Shown: in pieces, positions 176 through 43,180 of the stretch
Layout of the letters: each line of letters opens with the position of its first letter
Numbering within the stretch: position 1 is the stretch's first letter
Notes under the pieces: generated by a model
The model's input: only the letters and a program-made list of their open reading frames with translations
The model's database searches: none
What the model was told of the DNA's origin: nothing
Assembly: GCF_022376445.1 (NCBI RefSeq)
Contig: NW_025955028.1
Coordinates: 152,860-216,859 of the forward strand
Source of the DNA: Fomitopsis serialis
Lineage: Eukaryota; Basidiomycota; Agaricomycetes; Polyporales; Fomitopsidaceae
Direction: 5' to 3'
Length of the DNA stretch: 64,000 nucleotides
Program-made: the position numbers and the translations under genes

Positions 176-2003
176 ACATACTCACACACATTGTCATTGA
201 AGATCATTACAGCTACCTTTGTATACATACAAAATTCGTATTGAATCCACAAAAACCAAACCTACCTTACGGCTCGGTACTTGATGCCGTTCAAAACGGA
301 CAACTCGTGTTTGAATGGCTGCGGCACACAGCTGGAACGCAGGAGGGATACCCGTGTCGTAACGTGTGATGTAAGCTGCAAGTGACTGTGAGAACACTGC
401 GTCGGAGATGGGGATCACCCTTGCTGTCTTTATCTCGCAGGGCAGCAACTGTTGAACGTTCGCGGGTGAGCTGATGTGTACACCAGAGGATGGGCATGGG
501 AGGAGGAGACGACACCGAGGGCAGAGAGGACAGCGGAAGTCCATGGGATGATGGGCGCAAGGGCAGGGCCAGCTATCAAGGATGAGAAGAAGGCGCGACC
601 ATCGGAGGATCCTGGTGTCGGCGCAGGCGAGAGGAGTGCATACAAACAATGCATCCACGAGAGTGTTTCGTCCTCCAAGAGAGCGCGTCGAGGCGCGACA
701 CGTCGGCGCAGAAAGGGACCGAAGCGCGTCGACGGAGGGCGAACGACGGGAAGACAGTCGAGGCACGGTCAACGGGCAGACACGAGTTGAGCAGCGGCGC
801 GCGATCGGACGCCTACGCAGCGCCCGATATATCTGTATTGAAGGCGGGCTCATCTTCGTGTGATGGCGCGCCGGACTTGACGTGGTGCGGTTGTTCGACC
901 TCGAACTCCGAGACGGTGAGGCTGGGAGGGTTACCGGGCGTGCGTAGTCTTGCTGCGCGTACGTACCAGCAACAGGCGCGTAGACGAGATCGGCGAGAGG
1001 CTCGGCGCCACCCTGCATGTCTGAGAGGCCCTCGCCGTCTGCACCCGCGAGCCAGAGGTGACTTGGTAGCTCCGCGCCCCAGTCTGACGGGCCTCGGGTG
1101 AATGCGACATTGGTTGCTGATGGAAAGGGATAGGCGAGAGACGTGAGCGCACTTCAGAGGAACGTCCACCAGAGCCGGACTGAGACAAGACGCACCTGTT
1201 TCCATGCCCAGGCATGCTGCCGATGCTCCCAACACGGCTGTGCCTCATGTCGAGGCTGCGACTATCAGGACCGGGGCTGAACGAGCGTTTCGTACCCGAT
1301 ATCAGAGGTGGCGCGCGAGATGACATTGGTGGCTCACAATCATTATGCATCGTCTTGGGCCAATGACCTAGCCCAGAATGTAGACCACCTGGTCCAATCG
1401 GCCCACCAGGACGAGGACCGAAGCTGCGCAGGTCAGCTGGTCCACGGTACAGCGCGCCCGAATTCGACGTGAGCCTCATGGGAGCCTTCGCAACGCCTTC
1501 GTTGAAGTCCCTGTCGACGGGCCTTGCAGGCGGTGGCGGCGCGCTGCCCGTCGGCGATGGCTGCACCAAGCGACTTGCGCTTCCCGAGCCTGTCGCGGGC
1601 TGCCCTTCAGCTGCCTGTTGTAAACTTGTAATCAGCGCCATACGCCGGTGTCTCCTGATTACTTACTTGGCTCCTTCTTCACGCGCTTTGCGGGTGCCCG
1701 TCGCATGCGCTCTTCCTTCGGTGCCTCGCTCGCCGCGGCGACACTCCTGTTCGAGCTCTCCGAGACCTTGTCCTTCGTGGTCCGGCGACGGCGGTCCTTT
1801 GCCTCGGCCCTCGGACATCCTAGGCATCGGCTGCTGCAGTATGCGCAGGCTCTCCGACGTACTTCTATAGCTGATTGACAGAGAATGGGACGCCGCACCG
1901 AACGACGGGGTTGGCAGGAAAGTCGCGAGTCGCAACCGTTGACATGGACGAGTGGGTGACGTGGCGCGCCTGTTTAGGGCAGGCGCCCGCGGTACTTCGT
2001 TCG

Positions 2004-2204
2004 TGTAACGGATATTCCCGTTACGGTATGTCTTACGTTATATGTTTGTCTTTGTTTGCTCGAGGACTCGTATGGCGCGCCAGTGCACCTACGAGTCCTC
2101 AGCCTTTACCTCGTCACCGCCTTTGTATGCAATCTGTAGACAGTATCTCTTGAATAGAGACTGGGTGCAGCGCATACGAGGCACGACGAGTAAGGCGTCT
2201 TACA
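2004..2204 (+). repeat. 5' LTR
   Basis: 201 bp, matching the 3' LTR. It starts with a small hairpin (GTAACGG / CCGTTAC arms at 2005-2011 and 2018-2024). It also contains an 11-bp inverted repeat (2062-2072 / 2090-2100) whose loop holds the palindrome TGGCGCGCCA. Confidence 0.93.
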
Positions 2205-2329
2205 CTTTTTTGCGCTCCAGAAAAAGCTTCTATCTCTGGGGACTATCTACTCTAGGCAACAAACTCTCGAACTCTCGAAATTCTATGCTCTATAACAACC
2301 TCTAGTCGACCCAGCAACACCTCAGCAAG

Positions 2330-5035
2330 ATGTCTGAGTCGACACCCAACCCCTCCGAAGCAACCCGGAGCAGTCGCGGATCCCGTAGCGGAACCCGCAG
2401 CAAGCTCAAGGTGTTGCGCGCGGAGATCAAGTCCAAGCTCGCCGCGAGCCAAGAGCAGCTCGAGCAAACACTCGCCGAAGCCGCGGCGAGTCAGCAGCGG
2501 ATTAATGCTGCGCTCGAGGAGTCCAAGCAGACCCGCAAGGATCTGATGGACGCCGTCGACGAGGCACTGTCGGCAGCGAGCAGCAGTCGCAGCCGCTCAT
2601 CGCGTGCGCAGACCGCTCGGACTGAGTCCCCCGACCAGGAGAACTCAGCCGGAGCACCCACAGAGCAGGCGCCGTCCGACCGTGAGGTCGAACCCGCACT
2701 GAGCACTGAACAGCCCGAGCCCACCAGTGGGCCTGCTCAGAGCCACCCGGAAACACTATCCCGGGCAGCTCCAGCCCAAGCAGCGAAGCCGGGCACCCTC
2801 CCGAAGGATGGTGCACGCGCCGAGTTCGACGACAGGCCTGTCGCCGAGCTCGAACCCGAACTGAGCGAGCGGTGCGTCGAGTCGACGCATCTCCAGGTTC
2901 GGGAGGGTATAGGCACACAGTACTACAGTAGTACTGTGTGCAGTGGGAACGAGCCCACGCGTGTAGATACGCTCGTCGCGTGTTCAGAGATGAGCTGCGA
3001 CACAAAAAATATATATTCGTTGTCGAATGACGTGCGCGCCATGTCGAGCAACTTGCTCGACGCGACGCGCGACGCGCTCGACCCTACGGGCGTCGAGCGT
3101 CACGGGTCCGTGGCGAGCGCCCTGAGTGCTAGCGCTCGCCGCACTGCACTCGACCGCCACCACCGACTCCACGTCCTCGACCACTCCCACTCTCTGGGCA
3201 GCCACCTCGAGCGCCCGTCCGGCGGACCAGACGCGCGCGCGGCCCCAACGCGAGTGCGAACTCGCGTTCGCGAATGGCTGGCTGACTTACCGCCAGTCCA
3301 GTCAGTGGCGACCGACGACCTGGTACCTCCCGGTACCAGATCGTCAATTCCTTCCCCCCCGGCTCCTCACCTCACCCCTCTCGGCTCGCGCATTGACTCT
3401 GGCGATCGATACCGCGGCTCTGGCGACACGCAACCCAGCCGCGCGACCCAGGGCTTGAACACCGCGCACTCAAGCCCAGCGCCGAGCTGCAAGACCGAGC
3501 GGACCACGAGGAACGCGGATCGTGGAGGCGGCGAGGAAATCCCGAAGAAACGAGAAGGGTGCGAGGAAGGCACGAAGGGAGAGAGGGAGGAAGGGTGCGG
3601 GGCGAGCAGGGAAAGCGAGCAGGAAGGCTCACAAGTCGAAGGTACGCCCATGCTGGACGTACCCTCCTCGCCTCCGCCTGTGCCAGTACCCCCGCCAGCG
3701 TGCGTATCGACGAACACGGAGTTCGTCGAGCGTACCGCTGGCCACGGAACCAGGTACGACTGCGAAGTCGTATCTTCCTCTCCGCAAAATAGCACGTCTG
3801 TGCTGCGGTACGACCTCCAGGTCGTACCTGGACCTTCCACATTGCAAAGCGACACGGCGGACGCGCAATACCGCACGTCCGACGTGTCCCATTGTTCCGC
3901 AACCGGATGTCGAGTAACGGGTACGCCCCAAATGGACGCACCCGCATCGATACCTCACTTCTCGCCCGTGTCCGCACCAGCAAGCATAGCGACGAACATG
4001 AAGTTCGCCGTATGCGTTGCTGGCCAGGAAGACGGCAGGCTCGCCCTGCAGGACGACCTAATGGTCGTCCCTTCCGCTCTGCAAGAGAGCACACCTGCGC
4101 TAGGGGACGACCTCGCGGTCATACCATCCATACCCCCTGTACCCGCGCCAGTAGGCGTATCGACGAACTCAAGACTTGTCGTGCGCACTACTGGCCATGA
4201 CTATGGCACTCCCGCCCTCAGGTACGACTGCGAAGTCGTACCGGATGTCCCACGGGCGCTGCGGTACGACCCTGAGGTCGTACCAGGACCCTTCACTCTG
4301 CAAGGCGATACGACGGACGCGCAACTTTGCACGTCCGACGTACCCCACCACACCACGATCGCGCTGCGCAACGACCTAATGGTCGTGCCTCCCACACTGC
4401 ACGGCGGCGCACTTGTGCTAGGGGATGACCTCGCGGTCGTACCCTTCAATTCGCAAAGTGGCACGATGGACACGCAGCAATGCTTGTCCAACGTGTCCCA
4501 CTCAACCTCGTCTGCATGTGGCGCGATGTATGCGCCTCAAGACGGCCTGCACGTCCTTGCGGAAGTGCAGACCTCCGACTGCCCCGGCACAGCGGAACCT
4601 CTTTTGGTTCAGCCAGCCAAGCCGTGGAACGTCCCGGACGATCTCTCCCGTGACGCGCTCGACTCCGCAAGGCTTTTGGAAAGCCGACCGACGCGTATGG
4701 CCTCTCTGCGAGAGGCTCGGACCGTCCCTTGGCGAGCACAAGCAGCTCAAGTCCGCGCAGCTGAACCGCTCGCGGTTCAACTGGCAGAACCTCCGTACGG
4801 CCTCGCCTTCGATTTGAACCTATCCAGCAGCCACCAACCGCGCGCGACCGTCTTTCAAGAGGAATTGCACTTCCCACAGGAAGTGCAAGCCCCCGGCTTC
4901 TCCAAGACAACTGAACCTTTCGCGGCTCAGCTAGGAAGCCCGCGATACGACCTCGACCGGCGCGACGACGCGGCGGACCTCGACCTCGACTTGTTAAGTG
5001 ACCACCACCCCTTCGCGACCCTGGCGCCCCGGTGA
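2330..5035 (+). CDS. LTR-element ORF1, 901 aa, Ser/Pro-rich with internal repeats
   Basis: A single uninterrupted frame starts at the first good ATG, about 126 nt after the 5' LTR. Residues about 25-85 (Lys/Glu/Gln/Ala-rich, heptad-like) look like a coiled coil. The rest is low-complexity Ser/Pro/Thr/Asp sequence. Residues about 445-720 hold degenerate repeats: a block with STN..F/LV..T.GH followed by octapeptides RYDxEVVP or DDLMVVP, then DTxDAQxxTSDVxH. Each octapeptide is encoded by a DNA hairpin in the same reading phase. There is no zinc knuckle, protease or polymerase motif. The position is that of a gag, but this is placement only, not homology. It ends in TGA at 5033-5035, overlapping ORF2. 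Confidence 0.75.
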   Translation: MSESTPNPSEATRSSRGSRSGTRSKLKVLRAEIKSKLAASQEQLEQTLAEAAASQQRINAALEESKQTRKDLMDAVDEALSAASSSRSRSSRAQTARTESPDQENSAGAPTEQAPSDREVEPALSTEQPEPTSGPAQSHPETLSRAAPAQAAKPGTLPKDGARAEFDDRPVAELEPELSERCVESTHLQVREGIGTQYYSSTVCSGNEPTRVDTLVACSEMSCDTKNIYSLSNDVRAMSSNLLDATRDALDPTGVERHGSVASALSASARRTALDRHHRLHVLDHSHSLGSHLERPSGGPDARAAPTRVRTRVREWLADLPPVQSVATDDLVPPGTRSSIPSPPAPHLTPLGSRIDSGDRYRGSGDTQPSRATQGLNTAHSSPAPSCKTERTTRNADRGGGEEIPKKREGCEEGTKGEREEGCGASRESEQEGSQVEGTPMLDVPSSPPPVPVPPPACVSTNTEFVERTAGHGTRYDCEVVSSSPQNSTSVLRYDLQVVPGPSTLQSDTADAQYRTSDVSHCSATGCRVTGTPQMDAPASIPHFSPVSAPASIATNMKFAVCVAGQEDGRLALQDDLMVVPSALQESTPALGDDLAVIPSIPPVPAPVGVSTNSRLVVRTTGHDYGTPALRYDCEVVPDVPRALRYDPEVVPGPFTLQGDTTDAQLCTSDVPHHTTIALRNDLMVVPPTLHGGALVLGDDLAVVPFNSQSGTMDTQQCLSNVSHSTSSACGAMYAPQDGLHVLAEVQTSDCPGTAEPLLVQPAKPWNVPDDLSRDALDSARLLESRPTRMASLREARTVPWRAQAAQVRAAEPLAVQLAEPPYGLAFDLNLSSSHQPRATVFQEELHFPQEVQAPGFSKTTEPFAAQLGSPRYDLDRRDDAADLDLDLLSDHHPFATLAPR

Positions 5036-7620
5036 GCGCGCAGATCGACGCTGGCGTAGTCCCAACGGACGCGCGAGCCCGAGATCGCGACCATATTGCT
5101 GCACTACCGACAGCGCAGCAGCCGGCGCTTACGGACTCCGACCGACCAGAACGGTCGCTCGACCGTCAAACCGGCGAGAACTTTACAGTTCTCGCCGATG
5201 GCTCAATCCTAGGGACCCCCAGCCAACATATTGTCGACCTCTCCGCGCGCCCCAACACCGCTGGAGCCTACGACGGGCACAACGAGCTCCAGGTCGAATA
5301 CGCACTCGGGAGGTCGCGCGAAGGGTGGAAGGACGGGCAAGGCAGGGACGGAGAAGACGTGGACGAGGGTGTGAAAGCAGGAGAGTCCGACGGGGATGGT
5401 CAGGCAGAAGGAGGAGAAGGGGAAGGGTGCGGTGTACGCGAAGGAGTCGAGCATTCAGGCTCGAAAGGCGCAGGTACGTCATTATTGGACGTACCCCTTT
5501 CATGGGTACCACCACTCCCTATCCCGAGGTCACCACCCGGGATGACTACGACAACCAGTGCGGTTGTCGTGGCCGTCACTGCGTACGGCAGTGGTACGGT
5601 CAGTCCACGAGGTGACCTACAGGTCGCGTCCAGCACGCATGTACAGCGCACGCACGACGCACAGAGGTCGAGCCCAATGCTCGAGGAACACACTACTGAG
5701 CGCACCGGCGACCCGAAGCGCGAGTACCAGGCGGTACTCGCTTCACGTCCATCGACACCCGTTTCCGTACCACTGCCCGTGCCGATCGCGACCACCTCAA
5801 AGGTCGTCGCAATCGACAGTGGTCCATCCACACCACAGAGCGACATCGTAGTCGTGTCAGTGGCCACGCACGGCGGCCTCCATGCCGGGGATCGCGTGCA
5901 ATCAACCAAGACGCCTACAGCTGCAGACGTACGACAGGTCGCACCCGAGACCGGATGGCGACCATCGGGACTATACATGCCGCCTGCACGACGCGTCCAC
6001 GGCCAACAAGACCGATGTGAGCCAGCTACGGTCGACGGCGATGTGAGCCAGGCCAAGTACCTCGCGGTACTTGACATCTCTAGCGAGCGAAGTCAGGATC
6101 CACCGCGGAGCACGTCCAAGATGGACGTGCTGCCGTCTTCCCCGGACCCAGCGCAGTCAAATGAAGGAACGGGGACTGACGAGGTCACGTCGGTGGTTCC
6201 AGGGCAAGGGAAACTTGGCGAGGACGACTCCTCGTCCTCGCGGGTACAATTACCTGGACCGTATAGTGTGGCAGGCACATCCAGCTTACCGGGTGATGCA
6301 CCCGCATCGAATGACGCGACGACCAGGGCGTCGTCGCGCGCCCATAAGAAGGAACATCCACCGCGAGGGCTGGATTCATCGGACTCAGGTGAACGGCGAC
6401 GTTCAACGACTACCGGTGGTATCGAGACCGAGCCGGCGCGAGCGCAGACCTCCTCTACGAGGGGGGGTACTCTCTTGAGAGGGGAAGGGAGCGGGGCCTC
6501 GAACGGCCGCCGCTCGTTCCACAACACAACCAGTACATCACACGAAGATGTACTGGCCTCGGACCCGGCAGCGACACGGACGCCAAGCCGTGAGATTGAC
6601 GTACGGGCCACCCACGGGAATTCGACGCGAATGCCAGCTACTCGCACATCGAGTAGTCAGCGCGATGTGCAGGATACGGCGCGAGTGGCCAGTACATCAT
6701 ACAATGGTGTATTGGGACCAGATGTAGTCTCGGGCCGTACGTCCAGCGTAGTGCTCGACGTACGAGCTTCACATCGGACATCAAGACGCGTACCACCGGT
6801 ACCACGCGCATCGAGTGATCGACTCGAAGTGCAGGATACGGGTGACCGTCGCAGCCACGACATCACTCGGGAAGCCAGTACCTCGCGCCGCGAAGTACTG
6901 GAACTGAACCGAGTGTCGACCGCACTGGATTTTTCAGTAACCGTTGATGTGAGTCGATGGCCGAGTGACAAGAGGTCGCGCGAGGAATGCTTCAGCCTCC
7001 TTGCAGACCAACTTGACCACGATTTCGACGAGGCCGATGTCGCGGCGAGTGACGGCGAGTGGGCCATTTGGGCTCACTGTAAGAGGTCTGCACTTAGCTG
7101 TGGGCAGGCCCTCGAGGAGATGTCCCCGCGACCGGGGACATACTCTCGTGCAGCTCGTCGAGCATGGGACCACTTCCAGAGGGAGTTGGAAGTGGTCCCT
7201 CTCGAGTTTGACCCCTTGCTCGTTGCGCCACTACCTAAGGAGGTAGTGCGTCGATGGGTCTACAACAAGCTGGGCTGGCTTGTGGTACCGCCTTGTCAAC
7301 CAGTGGATGACTCCGATTGGTACATCTCCTCCGATGAGGAGCTTCCTATCACAACTCGTGAGGAGTACCCTGACCATACTGAGTCAGAGTACTTCTCCGA
7401 GTCCGAGCACCATAGCTTGCGGGACTCACGAAGTCCAGAGTCTGAGGAGACAAACTCAGTAGTAGTCTCCGACTACTACGAGCAGTCTGAGATGGAGGAT
7501 ACCCAAACTTTTTCTGCACTATCTGCCGAAGATGAGGATAACTCTGAAGATGCTGACTACTACTCCGAGTCCGAGTAGTAGTCTACCTTCTGGCCTGCAT
7601 AACTCTGTCGAGTTATGTAC
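2913..7620 (+). repeat. Array of at least 27 short perfect hairpins inside ORF1/ORF2 and 3' leader
   Basis: Perfect stems of 8-13 bp with small loops lie at: 2913-2941, 3043-3061, 3112-3140, 3247-3268, 3320-3339, 3807-3828, 4051-4070, 4221-4242, 4263-4284, 4865-4888, 5172-5197, 5473-5495, 5548-5570, 5720-5741, 6054-6073, 6109-6131, 6218-6241, 6315-6338, 6530-6556, 6644-6670, 6736-6764, 7120-7141, 7166-7199 (13 bp), 7229-7248, 7459-7479, 7555-7583 and 7597-7620. Further stems with one mismatch or G-U pairs lie at 3753-3774, 4700-4716, 4762-4779, 5783-5815, 6489-6515, 6689-6716 and 6875-6901. Loops are often 4 nt (GCGA three times, TAAT, TCGC, TTAC, CTGA). Confidence 0.9.
5002..7578 (+). CDS. 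LTR-element ORF2, about 850 aa, -1 frame to ORF1
   Basis: This frame opens right after a TGA at 4999-5001 and overlaps ORF1 by about 31 nt, in the -1 frame. There is no ATG near its start (the first is at about 5677). Expression would need a frameshift, re-initiation or splicing, in the manner of gag-pol, but no canonical slippery heptamer is visible. The product is Ser/Thr/Arg/Asp-rich and largely low-complexity. Its most protein-like part is residues about 645-760 (Trp- and Leu-containing, probably helical). It ends in an acidic Ser/Glu/Tyr tail. No reverse transcriptase YxDD, integrase DDE or HHCC motif was found. The frame is saturated with short hairpins, including one across the stop codon. 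Confidence 0.65.
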   Translation, partial: PPPLRDPGAPVSAQIDAGVVPTDARARDRDHIAALPTAQQPALTDSDRPERSLDRQTGENFTVLADGSILGTPSQHIVDLSARPNTAGAYDGHNELQVEYALGRSREGWKDGQGRDGEDVDEGVKAGESDGDGQAEGGEGEGCGVREGVEHSGSKGAGTSLLDVPLSWVPPLPIPRSPPGMTTTTSAVVVAVTAYGSGTVSPRGDLQVASSTHVQRTHDAQRSSPMLEEHTTERTGDPKREYQAVLASRPSTPVSVPLPVPIATTSKVVAIDSGPSTPQSDIVVVSVATHGGLHAGDRVQSTKTPTAADVRQVAPETGWRPSGLYMPPARRVHGQQDRCEPATVDGDVSQAKYLAVLDISSERSQDPPRSTSKMDVLPSSPDPAQSNEGTGTDEVTSVVPGQGKLGEDDSSSSRVQLPGPYSVAGTSSLPGDAPASNDATTRASSRAHKKEHPPRGLDSSDSGERRRSTTTGGIETEPARAQTSSTRGGTLLRGEGSGASNGRRSFHNTTSTSHEDVLASDPAATRTPSREIDVRATHGNSTRMPATRTSSSQRDVQDTARVASTSYNGVLGPDVVSGRTSSVVLDVRASHRTSRRVPPVPRASSDRLEVQDTGDRRSHDITREASTSRREVLELNRVSTALDFSVTVDVSRWPSDKRSREECFSLLADQLDHDFDEADVAASDGEWAIWAHCKRSALSCGQALEEMSPRPGTYSRAARRAWDHFQRELEVVPLEFDPLLVAPLPKEVVRRWVYNKLGWLVVPPCQPVDDSDWYISSDEELPITTREEYPDHTESEYFSESEHHSLRDSRSPESEETNSVVVSDYYEQSEMEDTQTFSALSAEDEDNSEDADYYSESE

Positions 7621-7797
7621 GACAATGATGAATGGTTGTGTCTGCTCACTGACACGATCTAGCATGTTGTTGTCTACAGTTCAACATCATCCTTGTTTGC
7701 CAATTGCTACCACCGTTGGGTTGTTGCATATATTTCCTTTCTTTTTCCTTTTTCTATCTGTTTCTCTGGTTATCGCTGGGACCCGTGGTCGTGTCCA

Positions 7798-7808
7798 GTG
7801 GGGGAGGG
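7798..7808 (+). promoter_or_regulatory. Polypurine tract of the LTR element
   Basis: The purine run GTGGGGGAGGG (one T) directly precedes the TG of the 3' LTR. This is the expected place for plus-strand priming. Confidence 0.8.
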
Positions 7809-8009
7809 TGTAACGGATATTCCCGTTACGGTATGTCTTACGTTATATGTTTGTCTTTGTTTGCTCGAGGACTCGTATGGCGCGCCAGTGCACCTACGAG
7901 TCCTCAGCCTTTACCTCGTCACCGCCTTTGTATGCAATCTGTAGACAGTATCTCTTGAATAGAGACTGGGTGCAGCGCATACGAGGCACGACGAGTAAGG
8001 CGTCTTACA
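7809..8009 (+). repeat. 3' LTR
   Basis: 201 bp, reading the same as the 5' LTR, followed by the target duplication GTTCG at 8010-8014. Confidence 0.93.
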
Positions 8010-8014
8010 GTTCG

Positions 8015-10322
8015 TCACCGCAACCTCACCGAGTCCTTCCCTCCCGTCTGAGCGCTAGCGCTCAGCCCTACGCACAGTAAGTATCCCGAGTTGATACCAC
8101 AGTGCTCGTGTTATGTAGTATTCGTGTACCAAGGTTTATCAGGAAATAACGTAGACTACTTACTAGTAGTCAAAGCTTTGTTCAATCTATTTCGTCAGAG
8201 CCTGTGATACTAGCTTCAAGTTGTATGTACTACTAGTAGTGGTAGCTTCGAAACTACGGTCTGTCGCGACTGATACGACTGACGCGACTGAGGAGACTGA
8301 CGGGCTCTGATTGAGTGAGCCAAGAACGACCCGAGGCCGCGCGGAGCATAAGCGCCCAATCATGTCAGCCATGACAGCGATCTCAGACTCCGGATCAGGC
8401 CCTTCATTAGCCTCAGGCGCCGTCAGACAGTGCGCCGTTTTGCTGATGAATGTTTTAGCCGTTTTAAAATAGACTCTGCTCACGGAGAAGCACCCTCGCG
8501 AGAAAGAGGAAGGGCCCCGAGCCTCCAGCTAGCGCAGGATGAGGGGGTTGTGAGGGGCCCGGGGCGAGACTCGAGAGCAACTTGAAGCTGGTAAGAGTGT
8601 TGTCTCCCCGGCCTGGCTGACAGTAGAGGACTTGATTTCCGAGGTCAATGTCCCTTCAGCTCAACTCAGCGAGTCCGCCTGATATCAAAGTTGCATGATG
8701 GCGTAACAAGCAGGATTGGTTCGGGCCCGGGCAGTCGTAGACTTGTAGTGGTTGCGGTTGCAGCGCAGAATGGGCGAAAGAGATGAGAACGAGCACGGAA
8801 TGGGTTCATATACTGGTGTTGGAAAGGTGCACGAATAACTACTGTCACGGTAGTACTGTGAGTACAGGCTGGCGCGATGCGGTATCTACGTGCTGATGTA
8901 AGCATCGGACGACTTGGCCCCACAGCCCCGTCACTGTCAATAAGTAACTTACTTATACTTGTCCATGCAATCAGAGAACACCCTTACGTCTGCGAGGATG
9001 TCATGCTCTTTCAAGCTGCTAAGTGTCGTCCTTGCACAATTCCGGGTGACGGCGAGGGCATTCGAAGATGTTCCGCGCGCCCGATCAGCCGGCCGCCTAA
9101 ACCGGAACTCTCTCTGAACAAACCGCTAGACTCAATGTCATCCTCGCCAACATATCCACTGGCATCAACTCTCACTAGTGGAGAGCAAGACTCACTGACC
9201 TGGACTAGGTCAGTGAGATACACGGGCTTAGTGGTTGTGACTTTCTTACACTTGTTTACATGCAAAATCTGGCCTCGAGCGGACCCCATGTTAATAACAT
9301 GTTATTAACGTGTTATTAACACGACTTGTTTACAAAGTATATTAGTCGGGGCTTTCTTACAGAACCCTAACGTCCACCTCTTGTGTAACCTGACGCCGTA
9401 CGGTGGAACTTCCGAGTCCTGGCACTGGCGGTGCGGTGGAACAGAAGTTTGGCTTCGGAAGCATACGACGTAACGCGGTTACGGTATAGGTGTGTGATTA
9501 CTCGCACGCTGCTATGTAAATATGTGTATTTTCGAATTATGTATTTCACAAGGTCCAAATGCACCACGCCCGCCGCGGTGCCAGTGGGCTCAGGAGCGAC
9601 TCAATCTCTTAAGGCACATAGCTCTTCAGTTAATACCTTGAGCTTGTCGTCGGTGTGGCAAGTGGCCTCTGTCTACTTGCCAGAATCAGTCAATAGTAAT
9701 CAAAATTTGAACAGTCTTGTCGACGGTGCTTTACACCAGGCCGCTCGCCCTTGTATGTAATGCCCGGGGTAACTATTGCTGCTCAACGCTTGGATCACCC
9801 GGGTCTGCTCCGCTGATAGCGCTACAGTGGGCAGTAACAACAACTTTGCTGCGGCCTGTCCAGTGGAGCACACCATTAATTGCCTGCATACGCCGATCCC
9901 CGCAATGGCACAATAAGGATTAGTTGGCATTATTCGGCAAAGTTGTCTACGCTCACAATGTCTCAATTTCAGTGAATCAGGGGCATATGAGCCAATAGCG
10001 TGCATATACAGCGACACCCATTAGTTTGGCCACCATGGGGCGGTTTCCACAAGCAAGCTAGGTGAGCAATGTTGAGATGAGTGTCTAATTGGGATATAAC
10101 AGCTGAAAAATCAGCGCCGCCCTCGTGTAGACAATCGCATCTTCTCGTAGCGGACTCGGTCTCGAACTCCTGCGTTCTCCAGTCGCCGGCGCGCTGCCCA
10201 CTGTCATCTCTTTAATTCATGAAGACGGATCGTTTCTGGCTCATGGATAAATCACATCCACTGAGTGGTTGAGAGGTTCGCTTACCAGTCCGCTATGATG
10301 CTGTCCTCTCCGCTAAATCCCG
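8015..10322. other. Non-coding stretch with palindromes
   Basis: No convincing gene. Notable structures: an 18-bp palindrome at 8048-8065 (CTGAGCGCT and its mirror); a hairpin with 11-bp arms at 9191-9217 (5-nt loop); a 20-bp AT-rich palindrome at 9290-9309 followed by a 7-bp-arm inverted repeat at about 9309-9323; and one copy of a dispersed repeat (about 8710-8905). A coding-like scrap on either strand at 8190-8480 contains a GPDPES-like stretch that resembles one at 55,530. Confidence 0.5.
8710..8905. repeat. Dispersed repeat, copy 1
   Basis: Shares a diverged stretch with 39510-39668 in the same orientation. Common blocks are GGCTCGGGC-like, GTGTTGGAAAGG, ACAGGCTGGC.CGAT and ATCTACGTGCTGA..TAAGCAT. 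No coding content is evident. It may be a solo LTR or MITE end of an old family. Confidence 0.55.
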
Positions 10323-30779: not shown

Positions 30780-31240
30780 CCAGACATTCTCGCCCAGCCG
30801 ACCATTCTGTCTCACCCAAGATGATGCGCTATCCGACTCTCGGCTGGAGAAAATCTGTAACTGATCACCGTCTTGATTCAGCCGACTGTCTTGTCTCGCC
30901 CAAGACGATGCACTATCCGACTCTCGGCTGGAAAAGCTTTGCAGCCGACCACCGTCTTGATCCAGCCGACCTTCTCGTCTCACCCAAGACGATGCACTAT
31001 CCGACTCTCGGCTGGAGAAAATCTGTAGCCGACCACCATCTTGATTCAGCCAACGGTCTTGTCTCACCGAAGACGATGCACTATCCGACCATCGGTTGGA
31101 GAAGGCTTGCAGCCGACCACTGTCTGGATTCAGCTGACCGTCTTGTCTCACCCAAGACAATGCATGAGCCGAGCATCAGCTGAGGTATCTTTCCTGGCCG
31201 ATATCCATCTTGACTCAGCCGACCGTCTTGGACCTTCTTG
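30780..31240. repeat. 84-bp minisatellite, about five copies
   Basis: The core ATGCACTATCCGACTCTCGG recurs at 30823, 30907, 30991, 31075 and (diverged) 31159, a strict 84-bp period. As 84 is 28 codons, open frames run through it on both strands. Confidence 0.92.
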
Positions 31241-32859: not shown

Positions 32860-34300
32860 CAGGTCAGCGAGTGCGTGAGATGGTGGGCAAACAAGACAGC
32901 AGGCAATGAGAACGGCCAATGTACAAGACGGCGGGTGAGCAGAACAGCAAGTCGGGCCATGTGCAATATGGTGCGCGAGACAGTAGGATAGGAGAGACGA
33001 GTAGGACACTGGTTGTAATATGGTAGATAGGCGGGTAGATAGGCAACGCGGTGGACAAAACCGTGACAGGATTTGGGTGAGATGGTAAGTAGGCGAGATG
33101 GCGAGCAGGTAAGACGGTAGGCCAGCGAGATCGGCGACAGACAGGCGGAAACGGGCGGATGAGAGCCTCCCGGGGTAGCGAGAATGTTGAGCAAGGGTGT
33201 ATGCACGGAGTGGGGATGTAGAGAGGACGAGGCCGGGGGTGTGTCGCACGATTGTGTGAGGAAGGGTGGAGGGCGACAGGCAGGGGTATTCAAGTTTACC
33301 GTGGTCAGCCCTTCTCATTTCTCCTCTCTGTCGACCTCCCTGCTCCTCTCCTTGCGGTGACTCGTCCTTGCGTTAGTCGGGGCCTCCTTGGGGTGCCTTG
33401 AAGCACGCATTGACATGTCGTACGAGGCGCGGGCTCACGGACGAGCGAGCGATCATGTGGACGAGCGAGTGATCGTGTGGACGAGCGAGCGATCGTGTGG
33501 ACAATCGGGTTGATGAGTGGGCTGAGCAGAGGAGAGCGCGGGCGACAGTGGAGAGCGTGGGCGAGAGGGTGTAGGCGGGGCGTGGGCGAGAGGGCGCGAG
33601 CAAGAGCGCACGGGCGAGAGGAACGAGGAGCGCGTGGGCGAGATGGCACATGGGCAAAACGGCACCGCGGGTGAGACGACGGGCGGGTGAGACGACAGGC
33701 AGGTGAGACGACAGGCGGGTGAGACGACAGGCGGGTGAGACGATGGGCAAGATGACGGGCGAGATGCAGGCGAGCAAGACGGCCGGCAGGCAGCAGGAGT
33801 ACAATATCAAGAGCAAGCGAGACGGCGGGCGAGACACGGAGGTGGGACAGAGAGATGCCGAGCCTATGAATCGGTGGGCCTGCGAGACGGTGGGCCTGCG
33901 AGACGGTGGGCCTGCGAGACGGGTGGGCGAGACGGTGGGCGTGTGAGACGGGCGTGCGAGACGGTGGGCGTGCGAGACGGTGGGCGTGCGAGATGGTGGG
34001 CGTGCGAGACGGCGGGGGTGTGTGATGGGGATAGCGTGACGAGACGGAGGGCAAGGGCTTGTAAGACGGCAGGCTCGTAAGACGGCAGGCACGTAAGACG
34101 GCGGGCGTGCAAGACGGCGGGCGTGTAAGGCGGCAGGTAAGACGGTAGACAGGCAAGACGGCGTGCGAGCAGGACAGCAGGTGTGCAATTACACAGGGGA
34201 TGCAGGCAAGACGGTATGCGCGCAAGACGGCGGGTGACATGGTGGACAGGCAACCTGGTGAATGAGAGGGCAAGGTGGTGCGTACGCAGGCGAGTATGTA
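32860..34300. repeat. GC-rich degenerate array, mainly 16-bp period
   Basis: Units such as GCGGGTGAGACGACAG (33680-33740), GTGGGCCTGCGAGACG (33885-33925) and GTGGGCGTGCGAGACG (33950-34010) repeat every 16 bp. A 20-bp variant lies at 33440-33500. The purine-rich strand is plus. The same style of array occurs at 42.4-43.2, 46.4-46.7 and 47.5-47.8 kb. Confidence 0.8.
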
Positions 34301-42399: not shown

Positions 42400-43180
42400 T
42401 GCCCCGCGTGAAAACGCAGCCGACGGAAGGACGACGGGCACGAGCGGGAGCGAACGAGCGGGCGAGCGGACTGGCGGACTGGCAGAAGGACGGGCAGGCG
42501 GACTGTCGGGCAGGAAGACGGACGGGCAGACCGGTAGGCAGGAAGACGGGCGGGTAGGAAGGCGGGCGGGTAGGAAGGCGGGCGGGTAGGAAAACGGGCG
42601 GGTAGGAAAACGGGTGGGTAGGAAGACGAACATCCGACAGACAAGCGGACGGGTTGGAGAGTGGCAAGTGACCAGACGACAGCACACGCCCACCGCGAGC
42701 GTGCCGGGCGAACGCCCGGCACGCAGACACGGCCGACGGATGCAGACGCAGACGGGTGAGCAGGCGGGCAGATCGGTGCGCAGTCAGGCGATCTTACGGA
42801 CGAGCGGGAGGGCAGGCGGGCGAGCGAGAGGGCAAGCAGACGAGCTGGTGGGTGGTCCAGAATGGGCGGACAAGCGGACAAGGAGGCGAGCAGGCAATGA
42901 GGTGAGCGGGTAGGCAAGGGGACCAGCAAGTGCGCAGGAAAGCGGGTGGATGGGCGAGCGAGAGGGCAGGCGGGCGAGAGGGAAAGCGAGCGAGAGGGAA
43001 AGCGAGCGAGAGGGAAAGCGAGCGGACCCAGAGTGCGGATGAGCACTACACACACGACGACCGCGAGCGTGCAGGGCGAATGTCCAGCACGCAAGCACGG
43101 CCAACGGACGAAGATGGGCGCATGAGCAAGGAGAGAGTGACCGTGACGGTGGGCAAGGTGGGCAGGCCGGGGCGCACGCA
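42400..43180. repeat. GC-rich degenerate array with 16-bp units
   Basis: Five exact-length 16-bp units CGGGCGGGTAGGAAGG lie at 42547-42626 and three CGAGAGGGAAAGCGAG at about 42975-43024, within looser GGGCGAG repeats. Purine-rich strand is plus. Confidence 0.8.

Follow-up and report, generated by a model that had tools for sequence, protein, structure and literature searches.

Why a retroelement should carry dozens of perfect hairpins inside its coding region is the question raised by a 64,000-nucleotide stretch of the Fomitopsis serialis genome (66 Mb; the stretch, hereafter the window, lies on contig C645). Window positions 2004–8009 are a non-autonomous long terminal repeat (LTR) retroelement of a recently active family, in which a preliminary description made from the letters of the window had noticed the hairpins. 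Here, we report that the hairpin excess is real, about nine-fold in the window copy over chance that preserves protein, codons and dinucleotides, and that purifying selection appears to hold the Watson–Crick complementarity of the stems, so that the nucleic acid of the element appears to have a function in addition to encoding protein.

Hairpin excess over chance

The preliminary count of at least 27 perfect stems is borne out, as 31 stems of at least 8 bp were found within 2913–7617 when loops of 3–20 nt were allowed (29 have loops of 3–12 nt, the other two of 13 and 18 nt). Fourteen stems of 8–13 bp lie wholly inside each of the frames 2330–5035 and 5032–7578. Shuffles of these frames that preserve protein, codons and dinucleotides, scored for stems of at least 8 bp with loops of 3–12 nt, averaged 1.77 and 1.35 stems, or about 3 against the 28 observed, and never exceeded 4 and 5 (n = 60 shuffles), so that counts similar to the observed ones were not seen. 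The earlier estimate of under one stem by chance was thus somewhat low, although the conclusion drawn from it stands. Dinucleotide shuffling of 2205–7808 gave 1.27 stems on average (40 shuffles), compared with 30 observed. With loops of 3–12 nt, stem density is 5.0 per kb in the whole element (30 stems), compared with 0.40 per kb elsewhere in the window (23 stems). The remainder also lies above dinucleotide shuffles, however: window 8015–64000 has 21 stems that reach 8 bp (7.7 in shuffles), of which 11 reach 9 bp (1.9 in shuffles). The interval 2913–7620 originally assigned to the hairpins holds most of them; others lie outside it, at 2470–2491 in frame and at 2062–2100 and 7867–7905 in the LTRs.

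The window copy was compared with 25 others (n = 26) and one relic; 20 copies are complete and bounded by LTRs, and each of these contains 21–33 hairpins. Ten frames from other copies have 12–31 stems, compared with 1.8–3.2 in their shuffles, none of which was as high as observed. The two most decayed sequences are hairpin-poor (L034, 5 in 7.5 kb including flanking DNA; L030, 8 in 4.9 kb). Among 213 distinct hairpins from 14 copies, a set from which near-identical and incomplete copies were left out, stems are 8–13 bp long and none is longer; arms of similar sequence are found at more than one place. Four-nucleotide loops make up 39% (22% in shuffles), and 40% of 5′ arms end in ACC, ACT, TCC, ATC, AAC or ACA (13% in shuffles). 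The codon register of the hairpins is much as in shuffles. When stems were folded in plus-strand RNA with ±120 nt of context, the predicted mean pair probability exceeded 0.5 for 27 of 30.

Could the palindromes be a mere by-product of the protein, arising from its repeated modules and its choice of codons? The frame does contain diverged repeats with hairpin-bearing units (families D2–D4), and the recurrence of similar arms fits such an origin. However, the shuffles that keep protein and codons remove about nine tenths of the window-frame hairpins, synonymous sites within stems are constrained (see below), and compensated changes are also seen in a hairpin beyond the stop codon, which makes this explanation very improbable.

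Selection on base pairing

In a plain pairwise comparison, calling a stem perfect in one copy means by definition that it is undamaged there, which biases the result. Our first pairwise figures, one set of which omitted pairs of L010 with L025, were set aside for this reason, and a triple test and a count of pair types were used instead. In the triple test, seven distinct intact copies were examined at sites where two copies agree, and the rate at which a third differs was recorded (L025, which is close to L010, was left out of this test and of the pair-type, synonymous G-U and dN/dS analyses; L034 was left out of the alignments). The third copy differed at a rate of 0.049 in stems (bootstrap 0.032–0.075, 38 sites), compared with 0.136 in matched non-stem 18-mers, 0.143 in loops and 0.135 in 12-nt flanks. 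At four-fold synonymous sites, the rates were 0.030 in stems, 0.145 in matched stretches and 0.122 in flanks. The pair-type count, with expectations taken from rates outside stems, covered 14,322 cells, which are not independent events. G-U pairs (252 cells, 0.31 of the neutral expectation), A-C pairs (327, 0.32), transversion mismatches (226, 0.19) and uncompensated double changes (44, 0.31) were all depleted, whereas compensated doubles reached 1.18 of expectation (135 cells).

Homologous copies also carry the compensatory changes on which the preliminary description had made its proposal depend. In addition to the compensated doubles, 92 of 752 column pairs among the 14 copies show at least two Watson–Crick types. 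On two small alignments, an independent pair counter found three pairs with eight compensated cells in alignment A3, with a covariation score reached by none of 500 shuffles, and two pairs with three compensated cells in alignment A2, which includes the hairpin past the stop codon and in which the signal is weaker (score reached by 36 of 500 shuffles). Since stems evolve slowly and tolerate compensated changes while loops and flanks drift, it is the duplex that is kept and not the loop sequence.

Template switching has been proposed to create and mend hairpins (PMC8794818; this and the other papers cited are represented here by excerpts), and if neutral it could make perfect hairpins and repair one arm from the other without any function. 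The absence of a G-U preference is in line with this, as is an excess of short unconserved hairpins in the gypsy element L036 of the same genome (see below). However, stems evolve about three-fold more slowly than their surroundings, although by our argument the per-site rate should not change if one arm is merely copied from the other in the absence of selection; compensated doubles, which the process should yield, occupy only 1% of cells (135 of 14,322); copy-specific hairpins number only 8, with changes in one arm only in 2 of them; and the Copia element L038, also in this genome, has no hairpin excess. Stem constraint, few compensated cells and few copy-specific hairpins speak against the template-switch insertions listed in the preliminary description as the whole cause, and we regard the neutral explanation as improbable. 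Template switching may nevertheless have helped the hairpins originate.

The element, its copies and its protein

Three marks of an LTR retrotransposon are present in the window copy: TG...CA LTRs, a 5-bp target duplication and a polypurine tract (Table 1). The locus had been called a retroelement from the start, and this holds, though no pol was recognized: neither window frame nor the intact frame of copy L014 matched any Pfam family, whether for reverse transcriptase, RNase H, integrase or protease, or for a Gag domain. No hammerhead ribozyme or other Rfam family reached its gathering score in window 1900–8100. The two long open frames described at first are indeed present but are really one frame, interrupted in the window copy; a single stop-free frame of 1,686–1,865 codons (1,657–1,835 aa from the first ATG) occurs in 8 of the 26 copies. 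By the element boundaries used, 15 of the 20 complete copies have 5-bp target duplications (the boundaries are off the LTR end in L017, L019 and L022, and L009 and L011 have none). The polypurine tract is GGGGGAGGG or GGGGGAGAG in 12 of 12 copies shown. A tRNA-type primer site starting with TGG is absent after the 5′ LTR, where CTTTTTTGCGCTCCAG stands instead; priming by the element itself or by an internal part of a tRNA is possible.

The LTRs do not differ in 16 of the 20 complete copies, while copies outside near-identical groups are mostly ∼10–25% apart. Unaltered LTR pairs in mutually divergent copies indicate that many divergent lineages moved recently. The LTRs of other copies are 88–98% like the window LTR (84% in L028, L029, L032 and L033), more alike than the coding parts of intact copies, which differ by ∼20% on average outside stems. 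Copy L014 (G000:C28:66500-73200) is a recent recombinant, near L015/L016 up to ∼2,700 and near L018 beyond.

The protein is conserved too. Outside stems, the ratio of nonsynonymous to synonymous substitution (dN/dS) is low over the first 100 residues (0.27) and in both the C-terminal region and the acidic tail (0.23), and higher in the middle (0.65), i.e. the N-terminal stretch and the C-terminal parts are kept and the middle is relaxed. B0H18DRAFT_1211770 of Fomitopsis serialis is a protein of the same family, and the Rhodofomes roseus homologue C8Q71DRAFT_728497 is similar at its start and tail (at the protein level only). AlphaFold models of the C-terminal part, made for two sequences, were too poor for use (mean predicted local distance difference test score, pLDDT, of 41.9). 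A peptide 'hairpin capacity' was considered as a test in Rhodofomes and dropped, since it scored z ∼3, yet one of two gypsy proteins scored 3.1 (the other 0.25); likewise, 7 of 27 homologous Rhodofomes sites had capacity, compared with 0.5 at slid sites, which mostly reflects conserved peptide.

Other retroelements and a candidate partner

In four other elements of the genome, the hairpin trait was weaker or absent. L036 (G000:C12:29000-38900, 1634–8986) is an autonomous Ty3/gypsy element with matches to zinc knuckle, protease, reverse transcriptase, RNase H and integrase (a Tf2-1-like integrase domain). Its perfect hairpins include 22 with stems of just 7 bp, compared with 5.2 expected, and only 4 longer ones. 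The copia element L039 and the RVT_1 element L040, whose frames are incomplete in the stretch analysed, show a weak excess, and Copia L038 none. Given this graded excess, the strength and conservation of the trait are, among the five elements, peculiar to the family of the window element.

A physical link between the family and L036 comes from contig C412 (L034/L035, G000:C412:254500-268500), where homology of a decayed copy to the element extends to element position 5100 and gives way within 1–2 nt to a gypsy gag-pol sequence with homology to L036 4307–7883. The same gypsy part occurs on C516 and C40, and as the three are 99–100% alike they represent one event, not three. A fusion inside both frames would be the expected product of strand transfer between two co-packaged RNAs. 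The presumed 5′ LTR end of L036, CTTACA followed by TCTTTTTGAGC, resembles that of the element, CTTACA followed by CTTTTTTGCGC, although the match is short; a second LTR of L036 was sought and not found. The shared primer site was also tried as a route to an autonomous partner, and none emerged from the 33 exact matches and the one of three one-mismatch matches that were examined: the 33 lie near family matches, and the 34th exact match lies at a contig end.

A possible role in packaging and its alternatives

Selection that acts on perfect one-turn duplexes, whatever their loops and spacing, would suit a transcript in which they play a physical role or are read by shape. The explanation we favour, at a probability of a little under 40%, is that of a non-autonomous element with 20–30 selected RNA duplexes that would aid packaging or compaction in gypsy particles. 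The single long frame would double as a scaffold for some 20–30 short perfect hairpins, which would serve within the transcript as RNA duplexes of roughly one helical turn (8–13 bp), whatever the sequence of their loops. These could help to pack or compact the pol-less RNA into particles supplied in trans by the Ty3/gypsy lineage of L036, and the element's own protein, in which no domain was recognized, may take part. A more specific and doubtful version is that about thirty one-turn helices are read by shape and give the transcript priority in gypsy packaging or reverse transcription; if true, this would mean that an LTR retroelement parasitising gypsy particles has a packaging system dispersed through its coding region.

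Several observations weigh against the packaging explanation. Regular spacing of hairpins was sought in eight copies and not found. Copies whose frame was recently broken (e.g. L011, L017, L019, L022 and L023) retain 26–30 hairpins, so hairpin number is not tied to frame integrity in the short term. The number of pairs changed on both sides, taken alone, was reached by 151 of 500 (A2) and 52 of 500 (A3) shuffles. Loops are unconstrained, unlike those of the loop-read packaging signals of MS2. The hairpins of L036 show no conservation relative to the relic (0.257 in stems, 0.267 outside; 0 of 12 perfect), and the C412 chimera could instead be a genomic rearrangement. Finally, the minus strand folds equally well (28 of 30 stems), and in the pair-type count G-U is tolerated no better than A-C; ordinary RNA helices tolerate G-U better than A-C.

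The last two points are what a DNA-level role, in which cruciforms or hairpins of single-stranded cDNA act in reverse transcription, integration or recombination, would lead one to expect, because G-U and A-C should be disfavoured alike if both strands count; the copies also recombine. The G-U comparison is nevertheless uninformative because the MS2 control likewise shows no G-U preference: its imperfect-hairpin version fails to favour G-U there (with small numbers), and its use as a test of RNA versus DNA was dropped. The synonymous-only share of G-U is 0.61 (interval 0.31–0.85; expected 0.48). The sole resolved recombinant, L014, has its breakpoint at element position ∼2600–2850, to which no hairpin was tied. 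We consider a DNA-level role unlikely, though still a live alternative.

Dispersed short duplexes might, alternatively, make the transcript a poor target for host silencing or decay, much as genome-scale ordered RNA structure would in some viruses. Dicer substrates are longer than 13 bp, and the stems stop below that length; that only pairing is held, with loops and flanks free, and that many divergent copies have unaltered LTR pairs also agree with protection of this kind. On the other hand, ordered RNA structure in viruses is usually not kept at fixed sites, whereas the hairpins here are conserved one by one. Such a protective role is a live alternative but less probable than packaging or compaction.

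Comparison with known systems

The TR-GAG and LARD types are non-autonomous LTR retrotransposons without pol but with a frame retained. The window element shares with them LTRs, a target duplication, a polypurine tract, the lack of pol and recent multi-copy activity, but it has no recognized Gag domain and its coding region carries selected hairpins, which to our knowledge are described for no TR-GAG or LARD element. More generally, selected structure in retroelement coding regions is usually pictured as a small number of signals close to the 5′ end.

Dispersed RNA packaging signals have been proposed to guide assembly in MS2, satellite tobacco necrosis virus (STNV) and parechovirus (PMC6281560, PMC5431903). 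The resemblance to the element, seen here as sequence alone, lies in many short conserved stem-loops running through coding RNA; the recognition motif of MS2, however, sits in loop and bulge (PMC6281560), while the loops of the element diverge at the background rate (0.143 versus 0.136) and share no motif, and its stems are perfect. As far as the excerpts describe it, genome-scale ordered RNA structure of positive-strand RNA viruses likewise involves coding RNA folded far beyond chance, but the element differs in having discrete, individually conserved perfect stems, and in being a retroelement. Retrozymes are non-autonomous retrotransposons that rely on RNA structure in the form of hammerhead ribozymes (PMC4918200); the element is also non-autonomous and structured, without a hammerhead or Rfam match. 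The Ty3/gypsy element L036, a possible partner, resembles the element in the bases around its presumed LTR end and primer site and is linked to it by the chimera, but L036 has pol domains and a zinc knuckle, and its hairpins are mostly of 7 bp and unconserved. No report of such hairpins in an LTR element was found among the literature titles and abstracts searched.

Nucleotide-level constraint on dozens of discrete duplexes is readable here from genomic copies alone, and the many young, divergent copies make the role of dispersed hairpins in retroelement RNA testable. The family is also a natural data set on how perfect hairpins arise and persist, template switching being one proposed route (PMC8794818).

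Features of the window

Table 1. Positions of the element's parts and of perfect hairpins in the window copy (stem in bp, loop in nt)
Position	Strand	Feature	Basis
1999–2003	.	Target-site duplication GTTCG, left copy	Sequence; matches 8010–8014 exactly
2004–2204	+	5′ LTR, 201 bp, TGTAAC...CTTACA, same sequence as 3′ LTR	Repeat comparison
2062–2100	+	LTR hairpin, stem 11, loop 17; counterpart in 3′ LTR 7867–7905	Hairpin scan
2205–2220	+	Conserved primer-binding-like sequence CTTTTTTGCGCTCCAG adjoining 5′ LTR	34 exact copies genome-wide
2217–2239	+	Leader hairpin CCAGA...TCTGG	Two halves found in 21/21 copies shown
2330–5035	+	Long frame, first part, 901 aa as listed	Frame list
2470–2491	+	Stem 8, loop 6, in frame	Hairpin scan
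2913–2941	+	Stem 13, loop 3	Hairpin scan, 14-copy comparison
3043–3061	+	Stem 8, loop 3	Hairpin scan
3075–3099	+	Stem 8, loop 9; compensated pair in other copies	Hairpin scan, 14-copy comparison
3112–3140	+	Stem 9, loop 11; pair probability 0.01 in plus-strand context	Scan, folding
3247–3268	+	Stem 9, loop 4	Hairpin scan
3320–3339	+	Stem 8, loop 4	Hairpin scan, 14-copy comparison
3451–3477	+	Stem 8, loop 11; compensated pair	Hairpin scan, 14-copy comparison
3707–3729	+	Stem 9, loop 5	Hairpin scan
3807–3828	+	Stem 9, loop 4	Hairpin scan
4051–4070	+	Stem 8, loop 4	Hairpin scan
4221–4242	+	Stem 9, loop 4	Hairpin scan
4263–4284	+	Stem 9, loop 4	Hairpin scan
4865–4888	+	Stem 10, loop 4	Hairpin scan
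5032–7578	+	Long frame, second part, 848 aa as listed; conserved C-terminal region and acidic tail	Frame list, copy comparison
5172–5197	+	Stem 11, loop 4; no copy of 14 with more than 1 mismatched or G-U pair	
5473–5495	+	Stem 8, loop 7	Hairpin scan
5548–5570	+	Stem 9, loop 5	Hairpin scan
5720–5741	+	Stem 9, loop 4	Hairpin scan
6054–6073	+	Stem 8, loop 4; pair probability 0.06 in plus-strand context	Scan, folding
6109–6131	+	Stem 10, loop 3; compensated changes at two pairs	Scan, alignment A3
6218–6241	+	Stem 10, loop 4; compensated changes at one pair	Scan, alignment A3
6315–6338	+	Stem 9, loop 6	Hairpin scan
6530–6556	+	Stem 10, loop 7	Hairpin scan
6644–6670	+	Stem 8, loop 11; pair probability 0.28 in plus-strand context	Scan, folding
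7120–7141	+	Stem 9, loop 4	Hairpin scan
7166–7199	+	Stem 13, loop 8	Hairpin scan
7229–7248	+	Stem 8, loop 4; perfect in window copy only among 12 with letters there	
7459–7479	+	Stem 9, loop 3	Hairpin scan
7555–7583	+	Stem 11, loop 7, across stop codon	Scan, alignment A2
7598–7617	+	Stem 8, loop 4, 3′ of stop codon; compensated changes at two pairs	Scan, alignment A2
7800–7808	+	Polypurine tract GGGGGAGGG	Precedes 3′ LTR
7809–8009	+	3′ LTR, 201 bp	Identical to 5′ LTR
8010–8014	.	Target-site duplication GTTCG, right copy	Sequence

Elsewhere in the window, a tandem array with an 84/168-bp unit occupies 30794–31164, and short G+A-rich tandem arrays with strong strand skew lie at 33439–34137 and 42459–43024.

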